From assembly GCF_002072955.1 (NCBI RefSeq), contig NZ_LPUF01000001.1, positions 2,812,896-2,876,895 of the forward strand: 64,000 nt of DNA. The letters are read 5' to 3'. This stretch comes from Methyloprofundus sedimenti. Its GTDB lineage: Bacteria > Pseudomonadota > Gammaproteobacteria > Methylococcales > Methylomonadaceae. Position 1 is the first letter of the stretch, and every line of letters starts with the position of its first letter. Below are positions 1,928 to 59,926 of the stretch, one piece after another. The position numbers were made by a program, and so were the translations under genes. The notes under the pieces are model-generated. The model was not told the origin of the DNA. It was given only the letters and a program-made list of their open reading frames with translations, and did no database searches.

Positions 1928-3028
1928 CGCGAATTCAAGCAATTAATGCAACACCCTGTGATTTATTTATATCAACCCCCGTTATTTGGCAAAATACTTC
2001 CCATGGAGTTCTGTAATTTAACCCTTTTCTTGGACGATGATTAAGTGCTGTAATGGCACTATCAACCTCATCTTGAGTTACCTTATCCAAAGGTTCTTTT
2101 TTAGGGAAGTATTGCCTTAATAAGCCATTGTGGTTTTCATTTAAACCTCGTTGCCACGAATGATACGGTTTGGCAAAATAAGTGCCGCAGTCAAGTGTTT
2201 TTGCAATGGCTTCATGCCCACAAAACTCACGTCCATTATCAAAGGTAATCGTGTGAACCCAACGTTTAAAAGGCTCAAGAGCATTGATAATCGCCTCTTT
2301 CGTTAATTCAGATTCTTTACGCTCAATTGAGATGGCGAAGTTGAGCTTTGAGACCCGTTCAGTCAGCGTCACCAATACGCCTTTATGTCCTTTACCGATA
2401 ACAGTATCTGCTTCCCAATCACCTAAACGCGTTTTATCATCAACCACTTGTGGTCGCTCATCAATATCAACACGGCTGGGTATCGTTCCGCGATAATCAT
2501 TTTTTCCATATCGCTTACGATAAGGTTTGGCTTGATGCCTCAAATAAGTATACAAATCGCCACCGGCTGCTTTGTTAGCTAAAATATAACGGTAAATAGT
2601 CTCATGACTGACGGAGTCCTTACCTTGTTGTTTTAAGCGTCCTGAAATACAGTCAGGGCTCCATTTCTCTTTGATTAAAGGCGTTATTATCTGTTGTAAC
2701 TCAGCCGTCATCTTGATGTTTTTGGGCTTATCAATATGGCGTTGTTTAGCTATTCTCTCAGCTTGCTTGTAACGATAACCACACTGACCTTGACCTGTAT
2801 TACGCGTAATTTCACGTCCAATAGTCGATTTATGACGCCCCAATGTGATGGCTATTTGATTCTTAGAAACGCCTTGTTTTAGTTGCGTATAAATGTAAAA
2901 TCTTTCCTCTTGGGTTAGATGGTTAAACGTGTTCATTGAGCACCTCTTTTTAGTTTCAGGTTTTAGTCGACGGAAACTATACCATCTAACCCTTTAAAGA
3001 GGTGTTGCAGTTATTATATGAATTCGGG
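1928..3028 (-). mobile_element. IS30-family element, copy A (complete)
   Basis: An 1101-bp element with imperfect terminal inverted repeats: the left end begins cgcgaattca and the right end, read in reverse, begins cccgaattca; both arms end in tgcaacacc. It is flanked by a direct repeat ata (1925-1927 and 3029-3031), the 2-3 bp target duplication usual for IS30. It is almost identical to the copy at 29404-30498 and differs by an extra 6 bp inside the transposase gene. It is inserted in the upstream region of the IS1182-like element, so it arrived later. Confidence 0.93.
1935..2936 (-). CDS. IS30-family transposase, copy A
   Basis: A 333-residue DDE transposase that cuts and joins the ends of its IS30 element. 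The N-terminus has an HTH of IS30 type (LTQEERFYIYTQLKQGVSKN), followed by the catalytic core: D in GDWEADTVIGKG, D in ITFDNGREF and E in RGLNENHNGLLRQ. The gene fills the element and its length is normal for the family, so it appears intact. It has two residues more (GQGQ instead of GQ near residue 50) than the copy at 29411-30406, from a 6-bp tandem duplication or loss. The start ATG lies 92 bp inside the right terminal repeat. Confidence 0.95.
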   Translation of the reverse strand: MNTFNHLTQEERFYIYTQLKQGVSKNQIAITLGRHKSTIGREITRNTGQGQCGYRYKQAERIAKQRHIDKPKNIKMTAELQQIITPLIKEKWSPDCISGRLKQQGKDSVSHETIYRYILANKAAGGDLYTYLRHQAKPYRKRYGKNDYRGTIPSRVDIDERPQVVDDKTRLGDWEADTVIGKGHKGVLVTLTERVSKLNFAISIERKESELTKEAIINALEPFKRWVHTITFDNGREFCGHEAIAKTLDCGTYFAKPYHSWQRGLNENHNGLLRQYFPKKEPLDKVTQDEVDSAITALNHRPRKGLNYRTPWEVFCQITGVDINKSQGVALIA

Positions 3029-27319: not shown

Positions 27320-27646
27320 GTTATGCCACCAGCAAGCTTTGCTTTATACGGCCCTTCCCATAATGAACCTGTACGATGATATTGATGATTGAACATAACA
27401 ACGCCCTAATGACTGCATCACTTTGCTGATGCTATTTTCTGCATGCGGCGTGATTAACAAGTGAATATGGTTTGTCATCAACATATAGGCATGTAAATCA
27501 CACGCGTATTTTTGGCAGGCTGCTTTCAGGATACTCAGATAATACTGATAATCTTCATCTGCAACAAACACAGCTGCTCGATTATTGCCTCGCTGAATAA
27601 CAAGCTGAGGCTGACCGGGTATGACAAATCGAGAAAGACGAGCCAT
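27320..27646 (-). pseudogene. RAYT transposase, N-terminal fragment (copy B)
   Basis: It starts MARLSRFVIPGQPQLVIQRGNNR and keeps the HUH motif in MLMTNHIHLLITPH, followed by SISKVMQSLGRCYV. After this a small deletion shifts the frame; the other frame continues NHQYHRTGSLWEGPYKAK, after which similarity ends near 27320. The C-terminal third is missing. It is the best preserved N-terminus of the three RAYT remnants in the window. Confidence 0.87.
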
Positions 27647-29403: not shown

Positions 29404-30498
29404 CGCGAATTCAAGCAATTAATGCAACACCCTGTGATTTATTTATATCAACCCCCGTTATTTGGCAAAATACTTCCCATGGAGTTCTGTAATTTAACCC
29501 TTTTCTTGGACGATGATTAAGTGCTGTAATGGCACTATCAACCTCATCTTGAGTTACCTTATCCAAAGGTTCTTTTTTAGGGAAGTATTGCCTTAATAAG
29601 CCATTGTGGTTTTCATTTAAACCTCGTTGCCACGAATGATACGGTTTGGCAAAATAAGTGCCGCAGTCAAGTGTTTTTGCAATGGCTTCATGCCCACAAA
29701 ACTCACGTCCATTATCAAAGGTAATCGTGTGAACCCAACGTTTAAAAGGCTCAAGAGCATTGATAATCGCCTCTTTCGTTAATTCAGATTCTTTACGCTC
29801 AATTGAGATGGCGAAGTTGAGCTTTGAGACCCGTTCAGTCAGCGTCACCAATACGCCTTTATGTCCTTTACCGATAACAGTATCTGCTTCCCAATCACCT
29901 AAACGCGTTTTATCATCAACCACTTGTGGTCGCTCATCAATATCAACACGGCTGGGTATCGTTCCGCGATAATCATTTTTTCCATATCGCTTACGATAAG
30001 GTTTGGCTTGATGCCTCAAATAAGTATACAAATCGCCACCGGCTGCTTTGTTAGCTAAAATATAACGGTAAATAGTCTCATGACTGACGGAGTCCTTACC
30101 TTGTTGTTTTAAGCGTCCTGAAATACAGTCAGGGCTCCATTTCTCTTTGATTAAAGGCGTTATTATCTGTTGTAACTCAGCCGTCATCTTGATGTTTTTG
30201 GGCTTATCAATATGGCGTTGTTTAGCTATTCTCTCAGCTTGCTTGTAACGATAACCACACTGACCTGTATTACGCGTAATTTCACGTCCAATAGTCGATT
30301 TATGACGCCCCAATGTGATGGCTATTTGATTCTTAGAAACGCCTTGTTTTAGTTGCGTATAAATGTAAAATCTTTCCTCTTGGGTTAGATGGTTAAACGT
30401 GTTCATTGAGCACCTCTTTTTAGTTTCAGGTTTTAGTCGACGGAAACTATACCATCTAACCCTTTAAAGAGGTGTTGCAGTTATTATATGAATTCGGG
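29404..30498 (-). mobile_element. IS30-family element, copy B (complete)
   Basis: A 1095-bp element with the same terminal repeats as copy A, flanked by the 3-bp duplication tct (29401-29403 and 30499-30501). The disrupted IS3 gene proves both ends, because excision restores its frame. It is nearly identical to copy A apart from 6 bp, so the two copies diverged very recently. Confidence 0.95.
29411..30406 (-). CDS. IS30-family transposase, copy B
   Basis: A 331-residue DDE transposase with the same sequence as copy A except that GQGQ is GQ near residue 48. The catalytic residues (GDWEADTVIGKG, ITFDNGREF, RGLNENHNGLLRQ) and N-terminal HTH are intact. It lies antisense to the IS3 gene it interrupts. 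Confidence 0.95.
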   Translation of the reverse strand: MNTFNHLTQEERFYIYTQLKQGVSKNQIAITLGRHKSTIGREITRNTGQCGYRYKQAERIAKQRHIDKPKNIKMTAELQQIITPLIKEKWSPDCISGRLKQQGKDSVSHETIYRYILANKAAGGDLYTYLRHQAKPYRKRYGKNDYRGTIPSRVDIDERPQVVDDKTRLGDWEADTVIGKGHKGVLVTLTERVSKLNFAISIERKESELTKEAIINALEPFKRWVHTITFDNGREFCGHEAIAKTLDCGTYFAKPYHSWQRGLNENHNGLLRQYFPKKEPLDKVTQDEVDSAITALNHRPRKGLNYRTPWEVFCQITGVDINKSQGVALIA

Positions 30499-32753: not shown

Positions 32754-33575
32754 TCAGTAATCCGCAGGCGAAGCATTCAACAAAATTACTTCAATTTCTT
32801 CGGTGATTTCCTCTTGCCGGTATATCTGACTCTTTTTGTGTAATTTTTCGGTGGCTTCATCCAGATGCCTGACGGCATTATCCAGATGTTGTAAGCGTTG
32901 ATTGTTTTCTGCCGCCAACGAAGTATATAAAATATCCTGTAGAGCGCTAAGCACATACTGATCAACCAGTTCGAGCAAAAACTGCGACGGTTGTAGATTT
33001 AACAATGGCTCATTTTTATACTCTGAACTTCGCTTAATATCCTTAAACGGCGGTAATAATGTTTTCAGCGTTATATTCAAATGTTCATCCTGATGAAATA
33101 ACACCGATAAGTTGAATAACTCGTATTGATTATGCAGCTGGCTGATAGCATCGCTCACGCTGTTTAATACCTGACTAATTTCATCACTGCTATTTGCGCC
33201 GGATAGCTCTGTAAAGGCGATATTGGTGTTTTGCAATCGAGCACATAATCGGCTCCCCACGGCAATAACACTATCAGCTGATGCTTGTGTCAGTTGTTCA
33301 ATCAAGCTTTCATTAAGATTACCGCAAAATCCTCGTTCGGAACCGATAATAATCACGATTAATGGCGTACTGATTTTTAGCTCTGGCAAACCCGGATAAA
33401 ACTGTAGAAAATCTGCTGCGACGGTTTCAATATGCTGTACGACCAGGCTTTGTGCCTGACGCAGTCTAATCAGTTTATGCATATCCATAAACGCCATATT
33501 TTTCAGCGAATGCAGGATGCTGCGAATTTCCGTCAGGTGCGCAATATGCTGTTGCAGTGCGCGACTTTGGCTCAT
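32754..33575 (-). CDS. atpG: N-type ATPase gamma subunit
   Basis: A 273-residue central-stalk subunit that couples rotation of the membrane rotor to the catalytic head. The N-terminal helix ([23 protein letters not shown]) and the C-terminal helix ([21 protein letters not shown]) form the predicted coiled coil, and the core has [18 protein letters not shown]. It is the last gene of the operon and overlaps the atpA stop by four bases. Sequence divergence from housekeeping gamma subunits fits the N-ATPase type. Confidence 0.93.
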
Positions 33576-35071
33576 GCTGCGTTTGCTTGTTTATCAGACA
33601 GGACATTAATCAGCAATTGTCGCCATTCCTGTAAGTCGCTGTTTAATGCTAAAGGCGATTCTTTTACTGTCTGTTTTAAGCGTACCAACTCGCCAGCTAT
33701 TTGAGCCGGTTGCAAAGTATCAAGTAAGCCGTCGTTATAGGCAATCAGCCAGGCGAGTTGAAATTCACTGCTTTCCGGCGCTAACCGATCCTGTTTTAAC
33801 AGTTCGCGTAGCAAACGGCCGCGTTTGATCCGCGCTTCCATTGATGCTTCCAGTTTTTGCCCGAAACGGGAAAAGCTTTCCAGTTCCAGAAACTGCAAAT
33901 ATTCCAGTTTGATTTTGCCCGCTTGATCACGAATTGCCGGGTGCTGGGTTTTACCGCCTATTCGGGACACCGACTTACTAATGTCTATAGCTGGCCGAAA
34001 GCCGGAAGCAAACAAGTCGCTATCCAGATAAATCTGTCCGTCGGTAATGGAAATCAGATTAGTTGGAATATAGGCGGCTATTTCGCCCTGTTTAGTCTCG
34101 ACAATAGGCAATGCGGTCATGCTGCCACCACCATGATCGGCATTCAATCGGGTCGAACGTTCAAGTAATCGGGAATGCACGAAAAATATATCCCCCGGAT
34201 AAGCTTCGCGGCCCGGAGGGCGGCGTAATAATAAGGATAATTCACGATAAGTGCGTGCATGCGTTGCCAGATCATCATAAACAATCAACGTATCACGGCC
34301 TTGTTGCATCCAGTATTCGGCCAACGCACAACCGGCAAATGGGGCGATATATTGCAGACCCGGCAAAGCGGTTGCTTCGGCAACCACACAAACGGTGTAA
34401 TCCAGTGCATCATGCTGGCGTAGCAGCTCGATAGTATTGACGATAGCCGAGCGTTTTTGACCAATCAATACATAGATGCAAAAGACATTTTTACCTTTCT
34501 GATTGATCACGGTATCTATCGCCAAAGCACTGCGCCCCGTGCCTTCATCACCGACCAGTAACTGCCTCTGGCCTTTTCCAATCGGAATCAGCGTATCAAT
34601 AATTTTAATGCCGGTGTACAGTGGTTCACGGACAAATTCGCGCGCGATAATCGGCGGCGAGGCTTGCTCCAGATTACCACGTACGACATAAGCGGGCTTA
34701 TTTTGTCCATCCAACGGCGCACCTAGCGGATCTATGACTCGGCCTAAAAAGGTATCGCCAACCGGTACACTCAATGCATTCCGGGCAAGATGAACCAAAG
34801 TGCCTGCGGTGAGTGCTTCAGTTTGATAGAACAAAATGGCACCAATCAGTTCGCGGTTAAGATCGAAAACCATTGCGCGACTGCCATCGGCAAACATCAG
34901 CATATCTTCAATAGCCGCCGACGGCAGCCCCTTGATCCAGGTAATACCATCGCCCACAGACACTACTATACCCTGCTCTTTAACGTGTAATCTGGGCTGA
35001 TAGCGATTTAGCCATGCATGCTGTTTTTTTAATAACGCACTGTCAGCATATAAACCCGCGTCAGAAATCAT
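33572..35071 (-). CDS. atpA: N-type ATPase alpha subunit
   Basis: A 499-residue non-catalytic nucleotide-binding subunit of the head. The P-loop reads [14 protein letters not shown], so the usual lysine of GDRQTGKT is arginine. Other signatures are intact: [41 protein letters not shown] and [11 protein letters not shown] chose the ATG at 35071 because GGAG lies seven bases upstream; the longer frame begins at TTG. The start overlaps atpF by 11 bases. The N-terminal crown region and length are normal. Confidence 0.95.
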
Positions 35072-35807
35072 CAGCAAACTCCGCAAAACCGCTTAATTCA
35101 TACTGCAGATTGGCATGCAATACCCAGGCATCTTTATCAATTTTGAGTCCGGCAATAAGTGCCGGATCCAGGCTGTATTGAAACTTTAAGGGTTTATCGA
35201 TTAATGCAGTAAACTTACTTTCCAGTTGCTGTACCTGTCTTTCACTGAGCGGATAAACGCTGCTAACATGAATAGTCAGTGTGGCGTCGTTTTCCGTGGT
35301 TTGCAAAATTGATTGGCAGGCTTTTGGAAGTTGCTTTAACTGGCTCAGCAAGACGTCAAACAGACGCGATTCCAATTCCGGCCCGGCCGTTTGTTGCAGT
35401 AATAAGGTCGCAAAACGCGCACCATTTTGCAGCGCTAAAGTTTGCTGATGGCGCTGTAATTCCTGTTGTTGCCGTTGCAAGGCCGCCTGATTTTTACTGC
35501 GCTCCTGCTCCAGTTCTTTGTGTAATATTAATAAATGATGCTGCCGTTCTGTTTCCATTTGCTGATGCAATTGGGTCATGGCACTTTGCTTTTCCAGATT
35601 CCATTCCTGTAAACGATTGCCGTAACTTTTCTTCAGTTCTTCGGCTTCCTGACGCATTTTTGCAGCTTCGGCTAAAGATTGATCAATATGCTCTTTGCGT
35701 TGGGCAATAATATTACGCACAGGCTTGTAAAACAAACGCTGTAGTATCCAGACCAGAATCAGAAAATTGATGATTTCCAGTGAAAAAGTGGACAGATTAA
35801 ATTCCAT
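35061..35807 (-). CDS. atpF: N-type ATPase b subunit with delta-like C-terminal part
   Basis: A 248-residue peripheral-stalk subunit. A membrane helix (residues 4-28) is followed by a long coiled coil rich in Q, E and K (about 40-140). The C-terminal 80 residues ([19 protein letters not shown], then [21 protein letters not shown]) resemble the C-terminal domain of the delta subunit. No separate atpH is present, so this protein probably supplies both functions, as expected for N-ATPases. Confidence 0.92.
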
Positions 35808-35822
35808 CGTGAGCCGTCCTGA

Positions 35823-36092
35823 TTAATGAATGATATAAGCGAGCAAGGGGTTTTTAAACAACACGATCAAGATAATGACCAAACAATAAATCGCCAGTGA
35901 CTCAATCATCGCCAGACCAATAAACAGCGTACGCATAATTGAGCGCTCTGACTCAGGCTGTCGAGCTAATGCCTCCAGCGCACTGCTAATAGCTTTGCCC
36001 ATTGCCAGGGCAGGCCCTAATACACCAATAGCAATGCCAATGACAGCGGCAACAGTTGAACCTAATACTATCAAGGTAATTTCGTTCATCAT
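35823..36092 (-). CDS. atpE: N-type ATPase c subunit
   Basis: An 89-residue rotor-ring hairpin with two membrane helices. Helix 1 has GVLGPALAMGKA and the loop has ARQPE; helix 2 has the ion-binding glutamate in LAMIESLAIY. In many N-ATPase and Na+ type c subunits a glutamate or glutamine stands in helix 1 where this protein has methionine (the M of ALAMGKA), and a threonine follows the ES pair where this one has leucine. The ES...Y part is kept, so the coupling ion cannot be settled from the sequence. Confidence 0.94.
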   Translation of the reverse strand: MMNEITLIVLGSTVAAVIGIAIGVLGPALAMGKAISSALEALARQPESERSIMRTLFIGLAMIESLAIYCLVIILIVLFKNPLLAYIIH

Positions 36093-36757
36093 TATTCCTC
36101 TGAATTGATTTGTTGGGATTGCATTGCGCTGGCCAGATAAATTAAGGCCAACATGCCGAAAATATAGGCCTGTACTAAAGCTTCAATAATGTGCAGCATT
36201 AAAATAGGAATCGGCGCCAGAAAACCAGCCACTAAGACAATCAGCATCGCTGCCATTTCCAGACTCATGACATTGCCGAACAAACGAATGGCCAGCGCCA
36301 GTGTGCGTGTGAATTCACTGATAATATGAAATGGCAATAGCATCGGTGTTGGCTGTAGATAATGATGCAGATATTTTTTTAAGCCCTGAGTACGAATACC
36401 AAACCAGTGCACTGAGAGAAACACCAGTATCGCTAGTGCTGAAGTCACCGATAAATCAGCCGTTGGTGAGTGCAGTCCGGGGATCAGTCCCACCATATTG
36501 GCAATAATAAGAAACACCCAAAAAGTTGAAATAAACGGCATAATGATCCGCCCATGCTTTGGTGTAACTTCTAAAACCGCCTGTTCCATCGCTTCGAAAA
36601 TTCCTTCGATCACGGTTTGCATGCCACTGGGCAACATCTGCATATGCCTGGTTGCCAGCCAGACCAGGCTGATAATAAACAGCATCACGCACCAGGTTGA
36701 AATGATCGAGGCATGAATCGTTAGCGCCCCCAGCATAAGAGAATAACCTTCATCCAT
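36092..36757 (-). CDS. atpB: N-type ATPase a subunit
   Basis: A 221-residue stator subunit forming the ion half-channels beside the c ring. It has about five membrane helices and the essential arginine in FTRTLALAIRLFGNVMSLEMAAM. The last helix contains EALVQAYIFGMLALIYL. It overlaps atpE by one base and lies four bases after atpQ, so the operon is tightly packed here and there is no room for atpR between atpQ and atpB. Confidence 0.95.
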   Translation of the reverse strand: MDEGYSLMLGALTIHASIISTWCVMLFIISLVWLATRHMQMLPSGMQTVIEGIFEAMEQAVLEVTPKHGRIIMPFISTFWVFLIIANMVGLIPGLHSPTADLSVTSALAILVFLSVHWFGIRTQGLKKYLHHYLQPTPMLLPFHIISEFTRTLALAIRLFGNVMSLEMAAMLIVLVAGFLAPIPILMLHIIEALVQAYIFGMLALIYLASAMQSQQINSEE

Positions 36758-36761
36758 ACAC

Positions 36762-37037
36762 TTAATCCTGTTCTTTGATTAATAGATAAACATTTATTGC
36801 GCCAATAAACACACCTAATATCAATAAGTTCAGCGTCCAGCTCATCGAATAACCCGTCGCCAGGCTATCCAGCCAGGCACCCAGATAAGCGCCACCCACA
36901 ATGGGTAATACCATTACCAGACCGAGTGTTCCCAGATACAGTGTTTGTGCCAGAATACTCGACTGTTCTCTATGCGCCTTTTTTATGCGCTTGACCTGAT
37001 GATCAACCTGCCTTTGTAAGCGTTGCTTTTTATTCAT
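36762..37037 (-). CDS. atpQ: N-type ATPase AtpQ (AtpI-like) protein
   Basis: A 91-residue protein with a basic N-terminal helix (QRLQRQVDHQVKRIKKAHREQ) and two membrane helices. The second half has GGAYLGAWLDSLATGYSMSWTL and GAINVYLLI, the pattern of the ATPase_gene1/AtpI family. In N-ATPase operons this protein is called AtpQ and is thought to assist assembly or Mg2+ supply. AtpR normally follows but is absent. Confidence 0.82.
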   Translation of the reverse strand: MNKKQRLQRQVDHQVKRIKKAHREQSSILAQTLYLGTLGLVMVLPIVGGAYLGAWLDSLATGYSMSWTLNLLILGVFIGAINVYLLIKEQD

Positions 37038-37174
37038 ATTACACGCCCTGTATGAATGCCATCATGTTTTAATATTAGGGTATGCTGACGTACGTTTTTA
37101 ACATGATGCATTTTGTACCTCAGCAGCATCCTATTGCATTTTTACTCTGGTTTTCACTAAGTAAGGGGGGAATA
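37038..37174. other. Unusual 137-bp gap inside the ATPase operon
   Basis: All other junctions of the operon overlap or are under 25 bp. This gap between atpC and atpQ has no supported gene. It could hold an internal promoter or processing site; I see no convincing motif. Confidence 0.4.
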
Positions 37175-38985
<1,811 letters not shown>

Positions 38986-53000: not shown

Positions 53001-54326
53001 ATGTGGCAAAAATTTTGGTCCTTGTTCAGAAAAAAAAAGAAAAAGGAGAAAAAGAAAAAAAAGGAGAGTGATCGTGTTAATGCTAACGAGCTCGTTGCTA
53101 CGCGTGTTGAAGACCTTGTGCATGGTATGTATGTTTCTAAATTAGACATACCCTGGTTAGAGTCTCCCTTTAAGTTTCAGGGATTTAACATTGAAACTAA
53201 CCACGATTTAGATACCCTCAGAGAAGTTTGTGACTATGTCTATATAGACGTAAATAAACAAAAAAAATGGCAACATGGAAAAAACAGAACTGCTAGTAAA
53301 GACTCTTCTGATCTTATTTTTACTATAGGAAGCCCTCCTGAACAATTGAGTACCTTTGCCAAAGAAATTGCCCGAGCCGAAAGTAATTATAAGGAAGCCA
53401 GGGCTCTGGTTACTGAATTCATGAATCATGTGGCAAACGGTGACGCCATAGATGGAACGCAGGCCAAAGAGGCCGTCTCAGCATGTGTTAATAGTGTGCT
53501 GCACTCTCCTGATGCTTTTTTGTGGTTAAGCCAATTAAAAAATAAGGATAAATATACTGCGCAACATAGTCTAAATGTTTGTGTATTGTCTATATTACTC
53601 GGCCGGCATATAGGCTTATCTGAACTACAACTTAATCAAGTCGGCCTATGTGGCATGATGCATGACATGGGCAAAATGTTAGTTCCGCTAGCTATATTGA
53701 ATAAGCCCGCACACCTTGAACCAGGTGAGTTAGTGATCATGAAAAGCCACACAACTCTTGGTTATGAACTACTTAAATCCAGTACAGATATGTTCTCAGG
53801 TGCAATTGAAACAGCACTAACTCATCATGAACAACTTAACGGAAAAGGGTACCCTAGACATCTCAAGGGCAAACAATTGTCACATTATTCAAGAATTGTT
53901 GCCATTGTGGACATGTATGACGCAATAACTAGTGACAGGGTTTACCAGAAAGGAAGGACGCATCACCAGGCAACAAAAATATTGCTGGATAATTCTGATA
54001 GTCATCTGGACTATCAATTAACAGTTAAATTCATTGAAAGTCTTGGTGTATATCCTGCTGGTTGTTTTGTCGAACTCAGTGATGGAAAGATAGCGCAGGT
54101 GATAGAAGGACAACAGAAGTATAAACTTCGGCCTAAAATATTACTCATTATGGATAAGTCTAAAAATTTGGTTGATAACAAAATTATTGATCTTTCAAGT
54201 AGTGCATTTAATACTCCGAATAACCAATTGTCTATTCGCGCAATTATTCATCCTGAAGATTACAAAATTGATAGTAAAAAATATTATAAGCAAGGTGTAG
54301 TTCCTGATTTAATGGCAACACATTAG
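53001..54326 (+). CDS. HD-GYP domain cyclic-di-GMP phosphodiesterase-like protein
   Basis: A 441-residue protein. The N-terminus is unusual, with a lysine-rich run (about residues 10-24) before a DUF3391-like domain (NELVATRVEDLVHGMYVSKLDIPW, about 27-95). The HD-GYP domain follows: CGMMHDMGKMLVP with the HD pair, ALTHHEQLNGKGYPRHLKG with the GYP motif, and AIVDMYDAITSDRVYQKG. All expected motifs are present, so it should hydrolyse cyclic di-GMP. It is monocistronic. Confidence 0.93.
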   Translation: MWQKFWSLFRKKKKKEKKKKKESDRVNANELVATRVEDLVHGMYVSKLDIPWLESPFKFQGFNIETNHDLDTLREVCDYVYIDVNKQKKWQHGKNRTASKDSSDLIFTIGSPPEQLSTFAKEIARAESNYKEARALVTEFMNHVANGDAIDGTQAKEAVSACVNSVLHSPDAFLWLSQLKNKDKYTAQHSLNVCVLSILLGRHIGLSELQLNQVGLCGMMHDMGKMLVPLAILNKPAHLEPGELVIMKSHTTLGYELLKSSTDMFSGAIETALTHHEQLNGKGYPRHLKGKQLSHYSRIVAIVDMYDAITSDRVYQKGRTHHQATKILLDNSDSHLDYQLTVKFIESLGVYPAGCFVELSDGKIAQVIEGQQKYKLRPKILLIMDKSKNLVDNKIIDLSSSAFNTPNNQLSIRAIIHPEDYKIDSKKYYKQGVVPDLMATH

Positions 54327-54598: not shown

Positions 54599-54964
54599 TT
54601 ATAGTGATAAAGTCACATGCTTATCAGAGAGATAGATATTACCTTCACTTTCAAGTAATTTTATCGCTTGTAGTTTTTGCCCAGCACACACAGGACTAAG
54701 ACATTCTCCAGTCGTTGGTTCGAAGACAAAACCATGCATAGAGCAACTTAACAATTTTCCACTGACATGAAAAATAGTCTCTTTTTCACAGTCCAGGCGG
54801 CGCTGCATATGCATACAGTAATTCACAAAAGCATAAACCTTAGCCTCATAATAATAAATAATCGCTGTCCGACGCTGATGTTTATATTCTATATCACGCA
54901 CTAGATAGTCAACTTTATCTAAATCATGAACACTGCAAATGAATTTTAATTTTGACTTATCCAT
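54599..54964 (-). CDS. Rieske-type [2Fe-2S] protein
   Basis: A 121-residue small Rieske ferredoxin-like protein. The two ligand pairs are FVNYCMHMQ (C-x-H) and LLSCSMHGFVFEP (C-x-x-H), about 25 residues apart. I chose the ATG at 54964 because GAGG lies eight bases upstream. Such proteins carry electrons for oxygenases or nif-related functions. It is the last gene of the eight-gene nif accessory cluster, 72 bp after the GNAT gene. Confidence 0.82.
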   Translation of the reverse strand: MDKSKLKFICSVHDLDKVDYLVRDIEYKHQRRTAIIYYYEAKVYAFVNYCMHMQRRLDCEKETIFHVSGKLLSCSMHGFVFEPTTGECLSPVCAGQKLQAIKLLESEGNIYLSDKHVTLSL

Positions 54965-55036
54965 TTTAAGAACCTCTGTTGCATTGGCTAAGCGCAAATA
55001 CCCAAGTTAGTTTGATCAACAATCCATTCCAGGATC

Positions 55037-55489
55037 TTAAAGTAAACTCTTTCTTAGAGCGACCAGATCTGTGTTGTGCCATGCCTGTTGCAAATAGAAA
55101 TCAAGCGCGGCCTTATTACCTTTATCAGCCAGTAATTGTATTCGCGACAAGCCCTGGTTTTGTGCCCAATTCTCTATAGCCAAAAGTAACTGACGACCAA
55201 TACCGTGACGACGATAACGCTCATGCACAATCAAATCTTCGATTAATCCCACTTGCCCTCCTTCAGCCGTAGAAAATAAAACTTGTATCGAACACATACC
55301 AATCACTAACTGGTCTATCTCTGCAACAAAAATACAGCAAGTCTGCTTCTCTTCAAGCATAAGTTCGAGGCCGTTGCGGTGCTTCTCTGCATTAAAAGTA
55401 AAGTCACTTTCGATCTCAAATAAAGCGCGTAGTAACTCACACATGGCATCAATATCCATTTTTTCGGCATGGCTGATAACTGCATTCAT
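55037..55489 (-). CDS. GNAT-family N-acetyltransferase in the nif accessory cluster
   Basis: A 150-residue acetyltransferase. Motif A is seen in GLIEDLIVHERYRRHGIGRQLLLAIENWA, with the R-x-x-G-x-G/A acetyl-CoA loop, and the end has RIQLLADKGNKAALDFYLQQAW. The substrate is unknown. It is 51 bp from clpP and on the same strand; GNAT proteins are sometimes found in nif regions. Confidence 0.87.
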   Translation of the reverse strand: MNAVISHAEKMDIDAMCELLRALFEIESDFTFNAEKHRNGLELMLEEKQTCCIFVAEIDQLVIGMCSIQVLFSTAEGGQVGLIEDLIVHERYRRHGIGRQLLLAIENWAQNQGLSRIQLLADKGNKAALDFYLQQAWHNTDLVALRKSLL

Positions 55490-55540
55490 AAGGCTACAGC
55501 TCGCTAACTACTGATTTGGTACTGGTGCATAACTATTATT

Positions 55541-56188
55541 TTACTCAGCTTCTGCATCAGCGGGCCCCCCTCTACTGGTCAAAACTTGATCTATAAGTCC
55601 ATAATCAAGTGCATCTTGTGAACTTAAAAAATTATCTCTATCAGTATCTTTTTCAATTTTTTCCAACGGTTGACCGGTATGACCTGCCAGCACTTTATTC
55701 AACTTTTCACGAATACTCAAAATTTCTTTAGCATGAATTGCAATATCCGATGCCTGCCCTTGAAAGCCACCCAAGGGCTGGTGAATCATAACTCTTGAAT
55801 GCGGCAAACTGTAACGCTTGCCTTTAGCGCCACCTGTGAGCAATAAGGCCCCCATGCTTGCCGCCTGGCCAATACACATAGTACTGACATCTGCTTTAAT
55901 AAACTGCATGGTATCGTAAATTGCCATCCCCGCTGTAACTGAACCACCGGGTGAATTAATATACAGATGTATATCCTTGTCAGGATTTTCCGACTCTAAA
56001 AATAACAACTGAGCAACCACCAAATTAGCCATATGGTCATGAACCTGGCCGACCAGAAAAATAACCCGCTCCTTAAGTAAACGCGAATAAATATCGTAAG
56101 ATCGCTCACCTCTGGCTGTCTGCTCAACAACCATTGGGACTAAACCGCTCGCCTGCGGCTCCATAAACTGACTCTGAAAATCATGCAT
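55541..56188 (-). CDS. clpP: ClpP protease subunit (nif-cluster paralogue)
   Basis: A 215-residue serine protease of the ClpP family, which forms the double-ring barrel that degrades proteins delivered by ClpX or ClpA. The catalytic serine is in [16 protein letters not shown], the histidine in [12 protein letters not shown], and the aspartate in [14 protein letters not shown]. No clpX is adjacent, although housekeeping clpP is normally followed by clpX. Its location in a NifA-controlled cluster suggests a nitrogen-fixation-specific copy. The C-terminus ends in an acidic tail (ADAEAE). Confidence 0.93.
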
Positions 56189-56211
56189 ACTATCGCCCTT
56201 TTAGTCCTGTT

Positions 56212-56925
56212 TCAGTCTTCTTGATCATAATTAAAACGTTTACGCTCTTCTGGAGAAATACCTAAGATTTTTGCAAACCAGGGAGGTGGTGCATCGAATA
56301 CTGACTGGAATTCAGTTAATTTATCAGTAGCTGCTATGACTTCAGGTACCTTAATTGGATATATATCTGCGCGTACAATTTTCGCAGCGGCTGGACCACC
56401 GACTGATTGCATAAAAGCCACATGACAATCTTTAATGAGATTCACACGAAATAAATTACGATCATCGGAATCATCTGCTTCAATTGATGAGCGGATATCG
56501 ACTAAACGCATATCATCTTTGGATAACTGATAAATCAAAAACCGCAGACAAAAACCAAAATGTCCATCGAGTAATGCGCCCGTATTAGAACAAACAGCGA
56601 CTCTAATAGAATTTAGCAAATCGCCTTCTTGATAGACCTGAATTTCAGGAATATTTTCGTCCTCACTTTCTTCGCCCCAAAGATAGCGGACTGCAAGCTT
56701 AATATTCTCCAGGCCTATCGCTATATCTTCACCATCTTCTTCACCATCATGACTGCCAATACCGGTCTTTAAATTAGTGACCGTCACTGACTTCAGTTTT
56801 TCATCAGTTAACGGCGCACCCACTCGCGCATGTAAAAGCCCGACTAAATCACCCACCTCTACACCGGGTAGAATACGTGACGCTAACGCAATGCGTAAAG
56901 CAAGGTTACGATCTAACTGTTGCAT
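56212..56925 (-). CDS. nafY: NafY-like FeMo-cofactor-binding protein
   Basis: A 237-residue protein resembling NafY, the gamma protein that holds FeMo-co and apo-dinitrogenase. The N-terminal domain (LALRIALASRILPGVEVGDLVGLL, then LTDEKLKSVTVTNLKTGI) matches the NafY-specific part. The C-terminal NifX/NifY-like domain has RVAVCSNTGALLDGHFGFCLRF, with the histidine that is a cofactor ligand in NafY. It could also be called NifX- or NifY-like; the N-terminal domain favours NafY. Confidence 0.82.
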   Translation of the reverse strand: MQQLDRNLALRIALASRILPGVEVGDLVGLLHARVGAPLTDEKLKSVTVTNLKTGIGSHDGEEDGEDIAIGLENIKLAVRYLWGEESEDENIPEIQVYQEGDLLNSIRVAVCSNTGALLDGHFGFCLRFLIYQLSKDDMRLVDIRSSIEADDSDDRNLFRVNLIKDCHVAFMQSVGGPAAAKIVRADIYPIKVPEVIAATDKLTEFQSVFDAPPPWFAKILGISPEERKRFNYDQED

Positions 56926-56973
56926 AATAAAACCTATAATTTATGAATTGAAGATAAAAAGCCGCTGACAGTA

Positions 56974-57435
56974 TTATCGGGTGGCGGCACGTAAAAATTT
57001 CAGAGTGGGCAATGTTGTTGCCAAATCTATTGCCGTCATACCCTCTTGATTCTCTAAAAACAGATCTGCGCCTGACATTACAAGTAATTGCACAATATGA
57101 TCCTTACCACAAGATGCGGCATAAGTTAATGCCGTATTACCTGTTAGATTTTGATGATTAATAAAACAGCCATTTTCTATAAGAAATCGACAACACGCTT
57201 CACTCTCGGCATAACAAGCTGCCCATAATGCATTATTACCGTATTGATCAAGGCGATTCATATCAACGCCATGCGCCGCCAGGTAATGCAAAATATCTTC
57301 TCGACCTTGCTGGCTGGCAAGAATCAACGCGGATTCTCCTTTATAATTAAGACAATTCAATTCCAGCTCATTTATGCCATATTCTCTAAACCAGTTATTA
57401 ATATCTACCAACATAGCTATTCCACAAAATGACAT
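56974..57435 (-). CDS. Ankyrin-repeat protein in the nif accessory cluster
   Basis: A 153-residue protein made mostly of four ankyrin repeats: YKGESALILASQQGREDILH, YGNNALWAACYAES, LTGNTALTYAASCGKDHIVQ and QEGMTAIDLAT. Ankyrin repeats mediate protein binding. Small ankyrin proteins occur in several diazotroph nif clusters, but the partner here is unknown. Confidence 0.88.
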   Translation of the reverse strand: MSFCGIAMLVDINNWFREYGINELELNCLNYKGESALILASQQGREDILHYLAAHGVDMNRLDQYGNNALWAACYAESEACCRFLIENGCFINHQNLTGNTALTYAASCGKDHIVQLLVMSGADLFLENQEGMTAIDLATTLPTLKFLRAATR

Positions 57436-57467
57436 CGTATAGACCGCATCATAATTAATGTGCCTTA

Positions 57468-57779
57468 TTAACTTGCCGTTAGGCTTTGTTTCCAGCTTGC
57501 AAAACCGCCTTCTAAACTAAAAACATGTTTAAAGCCAAAATCAGTAAACTGCTCAGCTAAATGTTCACTCGCATGTCCGTAATAGCAATAAATAATAATT
57601 TTCTCTTCTTTATTGCCTTTCTTAAGCATCGTTTCCTTTAACTGCTCATGCAAGCACATAGCATTTTCTATATGCGCTATCCGATAATCTTTTAGTTCAC
57701 GACAGTCAAGCAACTTAGCAGAATTATCTTCCAGGAGTACCTGCATTTCAGCGACTGAAATTGTTTGGAATTTTTTCAT
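57468..57779 (-). CDS. Single-domain rhodanese (GlpE-like)
   Basis: A 103-residue rhodanese. It has the substrate-site loop IIYCYYGHASEHLAEQF with the catalytic cysteine, the N-terminal LLDCRELKDYRIAHIENAM and the C-terminal FSLEGGFASWKQSL. It would transfer sulfane sulfur from thiosulfate or similar donors. Rhodaneses in nif clusters, such as RhdN of Azotobacter, are thought to serve Fe-S or molybdenum cofactor assembly. Confidence 0.9.
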   Translation of the reverse strand: MKKFQTISVAEMQVLLEDNSAKLLDCRELKDYRIAHIENAMCLHEQLKETMLKKGNKEEKIIIYCYYGHASEHLAEQFTDFGFKHVFSLEGGFASWKQSLTAS

Positions 57780-57808
57780 AGCGAATACCTATTGATGCTT
57801 TACTCAAA

Positions 57809-58378
57809 TTAAATAGCGCCAACTGACGAACTTTTCTTAACCACAATAGTTTTTTCTAAAGCAGCCTCTAAACTAATCACCTCTTTTTTAATAGCAAAAC
57901 TTTTTGCTTCATCAAAAACAGTAATCACTTTATCTTCAGCCGACTGGCCTTTCAAATCACTCTTTTCTATATAAAGTAGCTCTAACAATTCATTCCAGAT
58001 CATCCCTTGATCATAGGCTACTAGCTGAAAGGTTGATCCTTCATATTCAACCTTAATATTTTCAGCAATATTTCCGACATAAAAAAGGAAAACAGTCTCT
58101 GGTGTTATATCCGACTTATATTCATCAAGAAATATTTTCAGGGTACTTAATTCCGTCAACAGGCCACTGACGAAAATCAACTTGTCGTCTGATTCCAGAA
58201 TAATGGCCTGCTGAATAACATACTCAGGGGGCTTACGATCAACATCAGATCCTTCTCTGAACCCCCCTTTTTTTAAGGTTAAATCGCCACGAAAAGCAAA
58301 TTTACCGGCTTCTGATGTTTCACCCAAGACTGAAATAATAGATAAAAAGCCATTCTTGTTATAACCTTCAAGTAACAT
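57809..58378 (-). CDS. Unknown protein 2 of the nif accessory operon
   Basis: A 189-residue acidic protein without a signal peptide or membrane segment. The sequence is soluble alpha/beta, with a strand-rich middle (VIQQAIILESDDKLIFVSG, then TVFLFYVGNIAENIKVEYEG) and a helical C-terminal half ending VVKKSSSVGAI. I do not recognise a family. It lies 21 bp after unknown protein 1 and 29 bp before the rhodanese gene, so it belongs to the NifA-controlled operon. Confidence 0.7.
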   Translation of the reverse strand: MLLEGYNKNGFLSIISVLGETSEAGKFAFRGDLTLKKGGFREGSDVDRKPPEYVIQQAIILESDDKLIFVSGLLTELSTLKIFLDEYKSDITPETVFLFYVGNIAENIKVEYEGSTFQLVAYDQGMIWNELLELLYIEKSDLKGQSAEDKVITVFDEAKSFAIKKEVISLEAALEKTIVVKKSSSVGAI

Positions 58379-58399
58379 TGTTATTCCTCTGATTTAAAT

Positions 58400-58816
58400 T
58401 TAATGTATTGCCGCACTTGCGTCAGCACTTAATGTTTCTATCAAATAATGATATTGATCATGCTGAAAATCTATATTCTGTTCCTCAAAAAAAACCTGCG
58501 CTCCTTCGACTGCATCTTGCATCACAGCAACGACATAACGCTTGGCATGCACTGATTGAAGTATATTTCGAGGCACAGAAGATTCAATTTTCAACGTATT
58601 AGATTTAATATCAAATGAATGGAAGCGCATCCCTTCAAACTCCGGCTTCTCTCCTGCACCTGACATTAGAAAATACAGATCCAGATTAGGCTTACTCGTT
58701 TGCACGGGATGCTTCCTGTATTGCGCCAGATCGATTGCCACTTTGGTCAGGGCCTGATAAAAGGGGGTTTCGTCAAGTTGACGGTCTGGTAAAAATGCAC
58801 TAATAAATAAAGCCAT
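58400..58816 (-). CDS. Unknown protein 1, first gene of the nif accessory operon
   Basis: A 138-residue soluble protein. Noticeable segments are MALFISAFLPDRQLDETPFYQ, PNLDLYFLMSGAGEKPEFEGM and VVAVMQDAVEGAQVFFEEQN. I do not recognise a family. AAGGTGA lies six bases before the ATG. Its start is 34 bp from the -12 element of a sigma-54 promoter, so it is the first gene of the transcript. Confidence 0.72.
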   Translation of the reverse strand: MALFISAFLPDRQLDETPFYQALTKVAIDLAQYRKHPVQTSKPNLDLYFLMSGAGEKPEFEGMRFHSFDIKSNTLKIESSVPRNILQSVHAKRYVVAVMQDAVEGAQVFFEEQNIDFQHDQYHYLIETLSADASAAIH

Positions 58817-58849
58817 ATCGTCACCTTTTTTATGAATTCATTTATATTT

Positions 58850-58865
58850 AGCAAAACGCTTGCCA
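58850..58865 (-). promoter_or_regulatory. Sigma-54 (RpoN) promoter of the nif accessory operon
   Basis: TGGCAAGCGTTTTGCT on the minus strand matches the sigma-54 consensus TGGCACG-N4-TTGCW at all but one position, with correct GG and GC spacing. Transcription would start near 58839, about 23 bases before the ATG of unknown protein 1. Confidence 0.88.
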
Positions 58866-58991
58866 TCAATGATGTTTTTTATTGCCTTTCTCGATTTAAA
58901 AAAATATTACTTACTTATTAATAACTTAATATAAAAATACAACAAAGTGTTTACTCAGATTATCGCGCCATTAAATTTCCCGGCATTAATT

Positions 58992-59007
58992 TGTAGCAAA
59001 CCCTACA
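58992..59007. promoter_or_regulatory. NifA upstream activator sequence
   Basis: TGTAGCAAACCCTACA fits the NifA binding pattern TGT-N10-ACA exactly. It is about 127 bp upstream of the -24 element of the sigma-54 promoter, a normal distance for DNA-looping activation by NifA. Confidence 0.83.
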
Positions 59008-59129: not shown

Positions 59130-59200
59130 GTAGGGTGGGCAATCTTTTCTGCCCACCGTGGTGCAGCCTTTATGGTGGGCAAAAAAACTGCCCACCCTAC
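59130..59200. repeat. Palindromic intergenic repeat (gtagggtgggca type)
   Basis: The ends gtagggtgggca and tgcccaccctac are perfect complements, with an inner tctgcccacc/ggtgggca second pairing. This is a common intergenic repeat style in gammaproteobacteria. One copy lies in the window, beyond the NifA site. Confidence 0.6.
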
Positions 59201-59375
59201 ATATTTTCATAAGGGGCTACCCCGAATTAAGTTTTCAGCCTTGATAACTCCCATAGGCTGAACCGTATAATCTTTCATAAAGTCATCATTTAATCGACAT
59301 CACTTATGTTGGCATAAACTCTGCTAACTATTTATAAAAATCAATTCAAGAAATGTGTAAAAAGCAGTTGAAATT

Positions 59376-59926
59376 ATGAATACAGACAAAAAATCCAAGC
59401 TAATCGTACTGGGATATGAGGCTATCGATAACGACCATGAAGAATTTATTAAGCTAATCGCCCAACTAGAAGTCTCCACCAATAATGAATACCCAGCCTC
59501 GTTTCAACAGCTATTCGTACACACCGTGCAGCATTTTGAACATGAGAATCAACTCATGGATGAATACTCTTTTCCTGCAACAGCCGAACATAAAGGCGAA
59601 CATATGCGTGTACTGAGTGAATTTAAGGAGTTTAAAAAACGCACATACTTCGCGCGGTGACGGTTGCGGATTTTATAACGAGTCAATTTTTGTTGAGAGC
59701 AAGGCGCTGAAACAGGCGCATAGCTAGCTACGCAACTGTTTCAGCAACGCAGCTATCGGCAAAAATCTGCCGCTAGAAAACCGCAACCGTGGCTGTGCGA
59801 AGTATAAATAAAGGTTTGATTGCATTTGGACGCTCATTTGCTCAAGAACGCTTACCGCAATGGTTTGATCTGCATATCACCACCTTGGACAGCGCTTTGG
59901 TGGCACATATTAATGCACAACTATAG
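59376..59926 (+). pseudogene. Bacteriohemerythrin, broken by a palindromic mini-element
   Basis: The N-terminal part has the diiron ligands of hemerythrin: the histidine and glutamate in DNDHEEFIKLI, the histidines in HTVQHFEHENQLMDEY and HKGEHMRVL. The frame then runs into an inserted palindrome (59644-59804) and stops. After the insertion the original continues INKGLIAFGRSFAQERLPQWFDLHITTLDSALV and ends at 59926. The last-helix H-x-x-x-x-D ligands (LHITTLD) lie in this separated part, so the truncated product lacks two iron ligands. Free bacterial hemerythrins bind oxygen. Confidence 0.85.
59644..59804. mobile_element. MITE-like palindromic insertion (about 161 bp)
   Basis: The outer arms cttcgc and gcgaag enclose further complementary blocks: gacggttgcgg near the left and ccgcaaccgt near the right, caatttttg/caaaaat and the central ctgaaacag/ctgtttcag. 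The whole insert can fold into one long hairpin. It has no coding capacity. The flanks leave uncertain duplications (a TA is present on both sides). It is the only copy in the window. Confidence 0.75.

Follow-up and report, generated by a model that had tools for sequence, protein, structure and literature searches.

The stretch of DNA analysed here (the window) comprises 64,000 nucleotides of the Methyloprofundus sedimenti genome (4.29 Mb, 6 contigs), positions 2812896-2876895 of contig C1. Towards its end, eight minus-strand open reading frames (ORFs) follow one another in a row, headed by a sigma-54-type promoter and a NifA-type activator site (Table 1). This row is very probably one NifA/sigma-54-dependent operon of nitrogenase accessory genes, located outside the main nif cluster. 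In the ORF list of the window each of the eight reads as an open frame, with intergenic gaps of 21-51 bases (72 for the last gap if the Rieske gene starts at ATG 54964), and an AGG, AGGT or GGG stretch precedes most of the gene starts. An earlier, sequence-only reading of the window had named nafY, clpP, rhodanese, ankyrin, GNAT and Rieske genes among eight on the same strand, and the ORF list and Pfam agree with it.

The nafY product matched both DIMCO_N (113 bits) and Nitro_FeMo-Co (47 bits) above cut-off, as well as the Protein Data Bank (PDB) entries 1p90 (E 2.8e-43) and 2kic (E 7.6e-18), which we take to be pieces of NafY. Its score against the nifX model TIGR02663 was 89 bits, under the cut-off of 112. 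The first two genes, orf1 and orf2, had no match in Pfam or NCBIfam. Sigma-70-like matches in the operon region occur at chance level (17, vs 19.5 in shuffles), and the one terminator-like site on the operon strand, a weak one, lies within the GNAT gene (55442-55425). Downstream of the operon, an HD-domain gene on the plus strand ends at 54326.

Table 1 Features of the predicted operon in promoter-to-end order, with positions in the window
Feature	Position	Strand	Remarks
NifA upstream activator site TGTAGGGTTTGCTACA (TGT-N10-ACA)	58992..59007	minus	plus-strand reading TGTAGCAAACCCTACA
sigma-54 -24/-12 promoter TGGCAAGCGTTTTGCT	58850..58865	minus	predicted start near 58839
orf1	58400..58816	minus	138 amino acids (aa), unnamed; homologues confined to nifH-bearing genomes of the two sets searched
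orf2	57809..58378	minus	189 aa, unnamed family; across the two genome sets, confined to genomes with nifH (a nifH fragment in G021)
rhodanese, single-domain, GlpE-like sulfurtransferase	57468..57779	minus	Pfam
ankyrin-repeat protein, 153 aa	56974..57435	minus	Pfam; same position in L031, L032, L034
nafY-type FeMo-co carrier	56212..56925	minus	Pfam DIMCO_N and Nitro_FeMo-Co
clpP2, second ClpP copy	55541..56188	minus	Pfam, TIGR00493; 84% identity to the copy beside clpX
GNAT acetyltransferase	55037..55489	minus	Pfam
Rieske 2Fe-2S ferredoxin-like protein	54599..54997	minus	Pfam; start TTG 54997 or ATG 54964

Reading along the minus strand, the order is TGTAGGGTTTGCTACA (59007-58992), 126 bases, TGGCAAGCGTTTTGCT (58865-58850), 33 bases and the ATG at 58816. 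The sequence-only reading had placed both motifs correctly and had put about 127 bp between them, where 126 were found, but its 34 bp to the first gene was offset by one from the 33 counted. The promoter ahead of orf1 has the GG-N10-GC pattern of a -24/-12 element. NifA sites of the form TGT-N10-ACA usually lie about 80-150 bases upstream; the site found here has this form, with its centre at about -160 from the predicted start, slightly past that range. Between the two motifs, IHF-like sites were found only at 1-2 mismatches, in an AT-rich stretch.

Sigma-54-like sites were scored out of 11 against a -24/-12 consensus. The pattern TGGCAN5TTTGC occurs exactly in the window only at this promoter, and 16 times at no more than one mismatch, vs a shuffle mean of 9.6; TGT-N10-ACA alone is not enriched in the window (12 found vs 18.7 expected). 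The window holds one pair in which a sigma-54-like site scoring at least 10/11 has a NifA-type site 60-200 bases upstream. By the same kind of count, the nif region (C3:1-80,000) holds three pairs (score at least 10, 40-200 bases), vs a mean of 0.24 and a maximum of 2 in 50 shuffles.

Further elements lie around the promoter. The intergenic region that holds the NifA site also contains, a short way upstream, a repetitive extragenic palindrome (REP)-like inverted repeat (59130-59200, 19-nt arms, 89% complementary), and a RAYT-like transposase ORF was recognised by eye at 27344-27646. Divergent from the operon, a 94-aa hemerythrin-like oxygen-binding ORF (59376-59660, plus) follows a sigma-54-like site, TGGCATAAACTCTGCT, scoring 10/11 at 59310 plus. 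With the palindromic NifA site some 300 bases before this second sigma-54-like site, the region might conceivably act as a promoter in both directions; the site is overlapped by a terminator-like stem.

nif genes and NifA-type sites elsewhere in the genome

The nifHDK and nifA genes, absent from view in the window, were sought in the rest of the genome and are present on contig C3, ruling out a genome without nif genes. nifH, nifD, nifK, nifE, nifN, nifA, nifL, nifS and nifM all scored above curated cut-offs (nifA: TIGR01817, 640 bits vs a cut-off of 529), nifU was clear by Pfam, and rnf and other nif names were assigned by eye. The operon lies on C1 (2,895,801 bases), with its promoter end about 24 kb before the end of the contig, and on C3 some 22 kb precede the first nif-type ORFs. 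From these positions, the operon and the nif genes may stand as close as about 46 kb plus the gap, and C1 and C3 may be chromosomal neighbours.

The word of the NifA site, TGTNNNNTTTGCTACA, has five exact matches in the genome. Four of them precede a sigma-54-like site (44-126 bases on) and a nif-type operon, namely the window operon, nifE, rnf and an FeS-protein/AAA-ATPase operon at C3:161 kb, while the fifth lies within a coding region. The word was picked after the window, nifE and rnf sites had been seen, so these three are not independent of the choice. The half TTTGCTACA is common to the window site and the sites of nifE, rnf and C3:161591. Ahead of nifU stand a one-mismatch TGTNNNNTTTGCTACA site and, behind it, a sigma-54-like site. 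The TGT-N10-ACA of nifH is a different one and lies 109 bases before the nifH promoter.

Several other loci were recorded in passing. The NifA-type operon at C3:157-161 kb (L128:4991-9490) consists of genes for an Fe-S protein, a SelO-like protein (by eye) and an AAA ATPase. A SIR2-like ORF (L007:7050-7955, C3:47050-47955; sub-threshold in Pfam) diverges from nifH and may be related to PnfA of Pseudomonas stutzeri; L035 has a similar ORF in that position. Transposase ORFs of 331-333 aa, whose starts are very similar by eye, were found in the window (1935-2936 and 29411-30406, minus) and at L128:11361-12356, the last near the NifA-type operon on C3. At 32754-38964 (minus), an ATP synthase-like cluster of unusual gene order resembles an N-type ATPase by eye.

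Promoter, gene order and gene distribution in other genomes

Two genome sets were searched, one of relatives (61 genomes, M. sedimenti included) and one of the class (369), with a few genomes common to both. In the relatives set, orf2 was found in 17 genomes, including that of M. sedimenti, and in none of the remaining 44. nifH exceeded its cut-off in 16 of the 61, all with orf2; the 17th orf2 genome (G021, 77% complete) holds a 41-residue nifH fragment (E 8e-18). In the class set, 32 genomes have nifH at E<=1e-100 (31 of them over cut-off); the orf2 profile matched 11 of these and none of the other 337 (Fisher 3e-13). orf1 is rarer (3/61 and 7/369, M. sedimenti in both) and occurs only in genomes with nifH over cut-off. 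It adjoins a flavodoxin-type gene in L091 and L092, in the same stretch as nifEN-like ORFs (by eye), and its match in L093 lies just past nifD and nifK (by eye); among the plasmids searched, no orf1 match was found. By this distribution, orf1 and orf2 are two families lacking a Pfam or NCBIfam name that appear tied to nitrogen fixation.

Pfam searches of 15 orf2 members gave weak matches, the best being ACT_3 in 5/15 (best E 1.1e-3), and these were not used. A structural model of orf2, built from the sequences of the window and of L010 only, had a predicted local distance difference test score (pLDDT) of 60, and a single-sequence model of orf1 one of 42; L010, a Filomicrobium metagenome-assembled genome, is the one orf2 relative from a scan of genome contigs. 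An McrC fold for orf2 was considered and rejected: the best Foldseek match, 6hz4_N, had E 9e-3 and a query TM of 0.25, with none at E<=0.001. Two related-looking ORFs of about 120 aa (L010:7396-7770 and L092:10724-11089), with KILDGKCKM in common and sigma-54-like sites nearby, may represent another unnamed nif-linked protein.

For the promoter in relatives, a pair was counted where a sigma-54-like site of at least 9/11 and a TGT-N10-ACA upstream of it lay inside 420 bases. Sought in other diazotroph genomes by this definition, the motif pair recurs ahead of orf2 in 7 of the 18 orf2 loci outside the window (L029, L030, L031, L035, L036, L038 and L091), vs 210/10,800 random 426-base stretches of the same loci (binomial chance 3e-8). 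The 16-mer TGGCAAGCGTTTTGCT is found identically ahead of orf2 in L038, and with one mismatch ahead of orf2 in L035 and of orf1 in L082. Among eight orf1 loci, three have the pair (L081, L091, L092) and two the sigma-54-like site alone (L082, L094); L093 and L095 have neither motif at that score, and L090 offers only 87 bases upstream.

Gene order was compared across family f1 of the relatives, 11 loci (L028-L038) of which L037 is cut by a contig end. Rhodanese and nafY genes stand behind orf2 in nine of the 11, with an ankyrin gene between them in three. Five have a 563-578-aa ORF between orf2 and rhodanese, by its start akin to the AAA ATPase of M. sedimenti (in L035 this AAA gene is in broken pieces), and five have NifN-like ORFs (by eye) upstream on the same strand. 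No orf1 match was found in these stretches. In M. sedimenti, the AAA gene belongs to a separate NifA-type operon on C3; the remaining genes stand in the window operon.

Homologues of orf2 also occur on named plasmids. On a Bradyrhizobium plasmid the homologue adjoins nifS/nifB and has the motif pair ahead of it. On pBPHY02 of Paraburkholderia phymatum, the homologue Bphy_7752 (27% identity over 170 aa) stands beside nifHDK. Table 1 of PMC8305402 lists 142 plasmid genes changed in nodules of a P. phymatum nifA mutant, among which Bphy_7752, at a log2 fold change of -11.54, has the most negative number printed; nifD is given at -10.05, nifH at -7.40 and the ankyrin neighbour of Bphy_7752 at -7.11, with 11 genes entered as NA (zero reads in the mutant). 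The 89.6-kb plasmid of Methylococcus sp. EFPC2 (NZ_CP070492.1, L190) carries a nif cluster with nifHDK, nifENX, nifQ, rnf-type genes, clpP, clpX and lon, and this cluster is also annotated with an orf2 homologue (29%), Rieske, GlpE, ankyrin and clpP-clpX genes. Its unit begins with a response-regulator gene, two genes ahead of orf2, and has the motif pair at its head; an orf1 homologue was not found in the EFPC2 genome (G057).

The presence of nifA and nifL, the recurring site word, the co-occurrence of orf2 with nifH and the recurrence of the promoter together support the sequence-only reading of the row as a nif-regulon module. A number of observations nevertheless weigh against it. Of 100 dinucleotide shuffles of the window, 13 contain one or more motif pairs at 10/11 or better, and at 9/11 or better the single pair found equals chance (shuffle average 0.95). 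The word TGTNNNNTTTGCTACA, at no more than one mismatch, has 37 matches vs 25 for a reversed control, and the 126-base spacing is the longest among the nif-type promoters seen in the genome (others 44-109). In eleven of the 18 orf2 loci no pair falls within 420 bases, some of them having orf2 behind other same-strand genes, and for Bphy_7752 a search of 430 bases gave a sigma-54-like site and no exact TGT-N10-ACA. As many as 21 of the 32 nifH-positive class genomes lack orf2, which is therefore not needed for nitrogen fixation in general, and the EFPC2 Rieske protein is weakly similar to that of the operon (27% over 55 residues). Given the shuffles, the motifs alone are suggestive and the case rests on the comparative evidence, by which the regulation is well supported; NifA binding and transcription as a single unit are predicted from it.

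The same comparison bears on whether the sigma-54 promoter might answer to another activator, such as NtrC, with the NifA-like site being a chance palindrome or derived from the neighbouring REP-like repeat, which begins with the same TGTAGGGT. An arm of the REP-like repeat at 59130-59200 does read TGTAGGGTGGGC, and the motif pair by itself is not significant. However, the repeat has only TGTAGGGT in common with the site, whose other half, TTTGCTACA, is that of the nifE and rnf sites; TGT-N10-ACA recurs ahead of orf2 in relatives, and the P. phymatum homologue is strongly NifA-dependent in the table of PMC8305402. We consider this explanation highly improbable.

A further question is raised by the genus itself, since none of 17 congeners (G001-G017, several of them incomplete assemblies) has orf2 or nifH over cut-off, so that M. 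sedimenti may have acquired nif or may be the only one to have kept it. Together with the position of the operon apart from the main cluster and the transposase copies in the window, this would fit a decayed or silent relic of a nif island from another lineage. The eight open frames, the conserved ClpP2 triad and the intact promoter motifs speak against such decay, and we give the idea hardly any credence.

A second ClpP, a second ClpX and the closest known systems

The ClpP of the operon shares 84% identity with the copy whose gene immediately precedes the housekeeping clpX. It scored 349 bits against TIGR00493 (cut-off 309), with Ser, His and Asp kept in the alignment at what we take to be the triad positions. 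A second ClpX, over the ClpX cut-off and 52% identical to the first, lies at C3:81.9 kb, directly behind nifM in a nifU-nifS-...-nifM row that is headed by a sigma-54/NifA-type pair; it has zinc-binding cysteines, a Walker A motif and an IGF motif. A second ClpP together with a second ClpX in the NifA-type nifU operon suggests a nif-induced ClpX2-ClpP2 protease.

Among nif-positive relatives, a second ClpP was found in family f4 alone (G039, G054 and G057, with fragments in G051). G054 and G057 have a clpP-clpX pair near nifEN, and G039 has a second clpP match (with one TGA within the matched span) and a clpX at the corresponding place. The ClpX of f4 is 74-75% identical to the housekeeping ClpX of M. 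sedimenti and is thus not the same ClpX2. A ClpP tree of 23 rows left 14 of its 20 inner branches open, and the four nif-linked copies are not joined in a single clade. A recent duplication of the housekeeping clpP is disfavoured as the origin of ClpP2, as the tree places the housekeeping copy with two congeners (96/92), a group to which ClpP2 does not belong.

These data also bear on how far the operon extends. Possibly the nif regulon takes in no more than the genes from orf1 to nafY, with clpP, GNAT and Rieske genes read from an internal promoter or being chance neighbours. In keeping with this, no clpP, GNAT or Rieske match was found in the orf2 stretches of f1 relatives, no ORF labelled clpP, GNAT or Rieske in 16 orf2 stretches of relatives, and no second ClpP in the 11 nif-positive f1 relatives (one match in 10, none in G021). 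The Rieske protein matched 21 of the 61 genomes at E<=1e-3, and its weaker matches (E 1e-6 to 1e-12) fall in 12 genomes, 11 of them without nifH over cut-off. By contrast, the nine genomes with strong Rieske matches (E<=1e-20) are all orf2-positive, and nif-linked clpP occurs with clpX in G054 and on the EFPC2 plasmid. The three genes also continue on one strand with gaps of 23, 51 and 39-72 bases, sigma-70-like matches are at chance level, and the sole terminator-like site is weak and inside the GNAT gene. We regard such a divided operon as unlikely and retain an eight-gene unit as the preferred reading.

In a working model of that unit, low fixed nitrogen and low oxygen would lead NifL to release NifA, which would bind at 58992-59007 and loop across about 126 AT-rich bases to sigma-54 RNA polymerase at 58850-58865, as at nifH, with transcription running from near 58839 through all eight genes. 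Judging by their families, NafY would serve as a holder of FeMo-cofactor or apo-dinitrogenase, the rhodanese in sulfur mobilisation and the Rieske protein as an electron or cluster carrier; orf1 and orf2 would be nif-specific helpers, and ClpP2 with the nif-linked ClpX2 may remove cofactor-assembly proteins. We tentatively extend this model, with rather less than even confidence, to a dedicated ClpXP that NifA builds from two operons and that, together with orf1 and orf2, sets the lifetime of NafY, NifB and NifEN, orf2 being an unnamed nif family across alpha-, beta- and gammaproteobacteria. The ClpX2-ClpP2 partnership and the degradation of Nif proteins are predictions from gene content, and within the literature collection searched no paper was found that names NafY and clpP together with nif. 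The operon indicates that the nif regulon of M. sedimenti reaches beyond the nif cluster, targeted proteolysis of the nitrogenase assembly line can be proposed, and such accessory genes bear on moving nitrogenase into other hosts.

The nif accessory genes of Azotobacter vinelandii presumably include nafY, glpE/rhodanese and the order nifUSV-cysE-nifWZM-clpX. In P. stutzeri A1501, the nif-island table of PMC2820453 has glpE, nifY2 and a Clp protease gene after nifM. As in these two, M. sedimenti has nifU, nifS, nifM and clpX2 in one row (nifV, cysE, nifW and nifZ by eye); unlike them, it has nafY and rhodanese in one operon with clpP, ankyrin, GNAT, Rieske, orf1 and orf2, on another contig than nifHDK. 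Passages of PMC3916325 describe Azoarcus clpX and clpP as under NifA control, and ClpXP as acting in nif protein turnover in A. vinelandii and Azoarcus. M. sedimenti resembles the A. vinelandii ClpX2 (Martinez-Noel 2011) and Azoarcus BH72 clpXP (azo2070/2071) systems, as described there, in having Clp genes in the nitrogen-fixation response, and differs in having a second ClpP and a second ClpX in two NifA-type operons, in addition to the housekeeping clpP-clpX.

Two plasmids come closest in gene content. In P. phymatum, Bphy_7752-7750 have the orf2 homologue and, behind it, an ankyrin gene (32% over 134 aa), NifA-dependent there according to the table of PMC8305402; unlike the window operon, the unit is short and includes a zinc-ribbon gene, and nafY, rhodanese and clpP are not listed in the 14.5-kb stretch. 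The EFPC2 plasmid has an orf2 homologue, Rieske, GlpE, ankyrin, ClpP and ClpX annotated with nifHDKENX, in another order within the nif cluster, with clpP beside clpX and the Rieske similarity weak as noted above. Set beside these systems, the row in M. sedimenti is a known kind of NifA operon with an unusual gene set.

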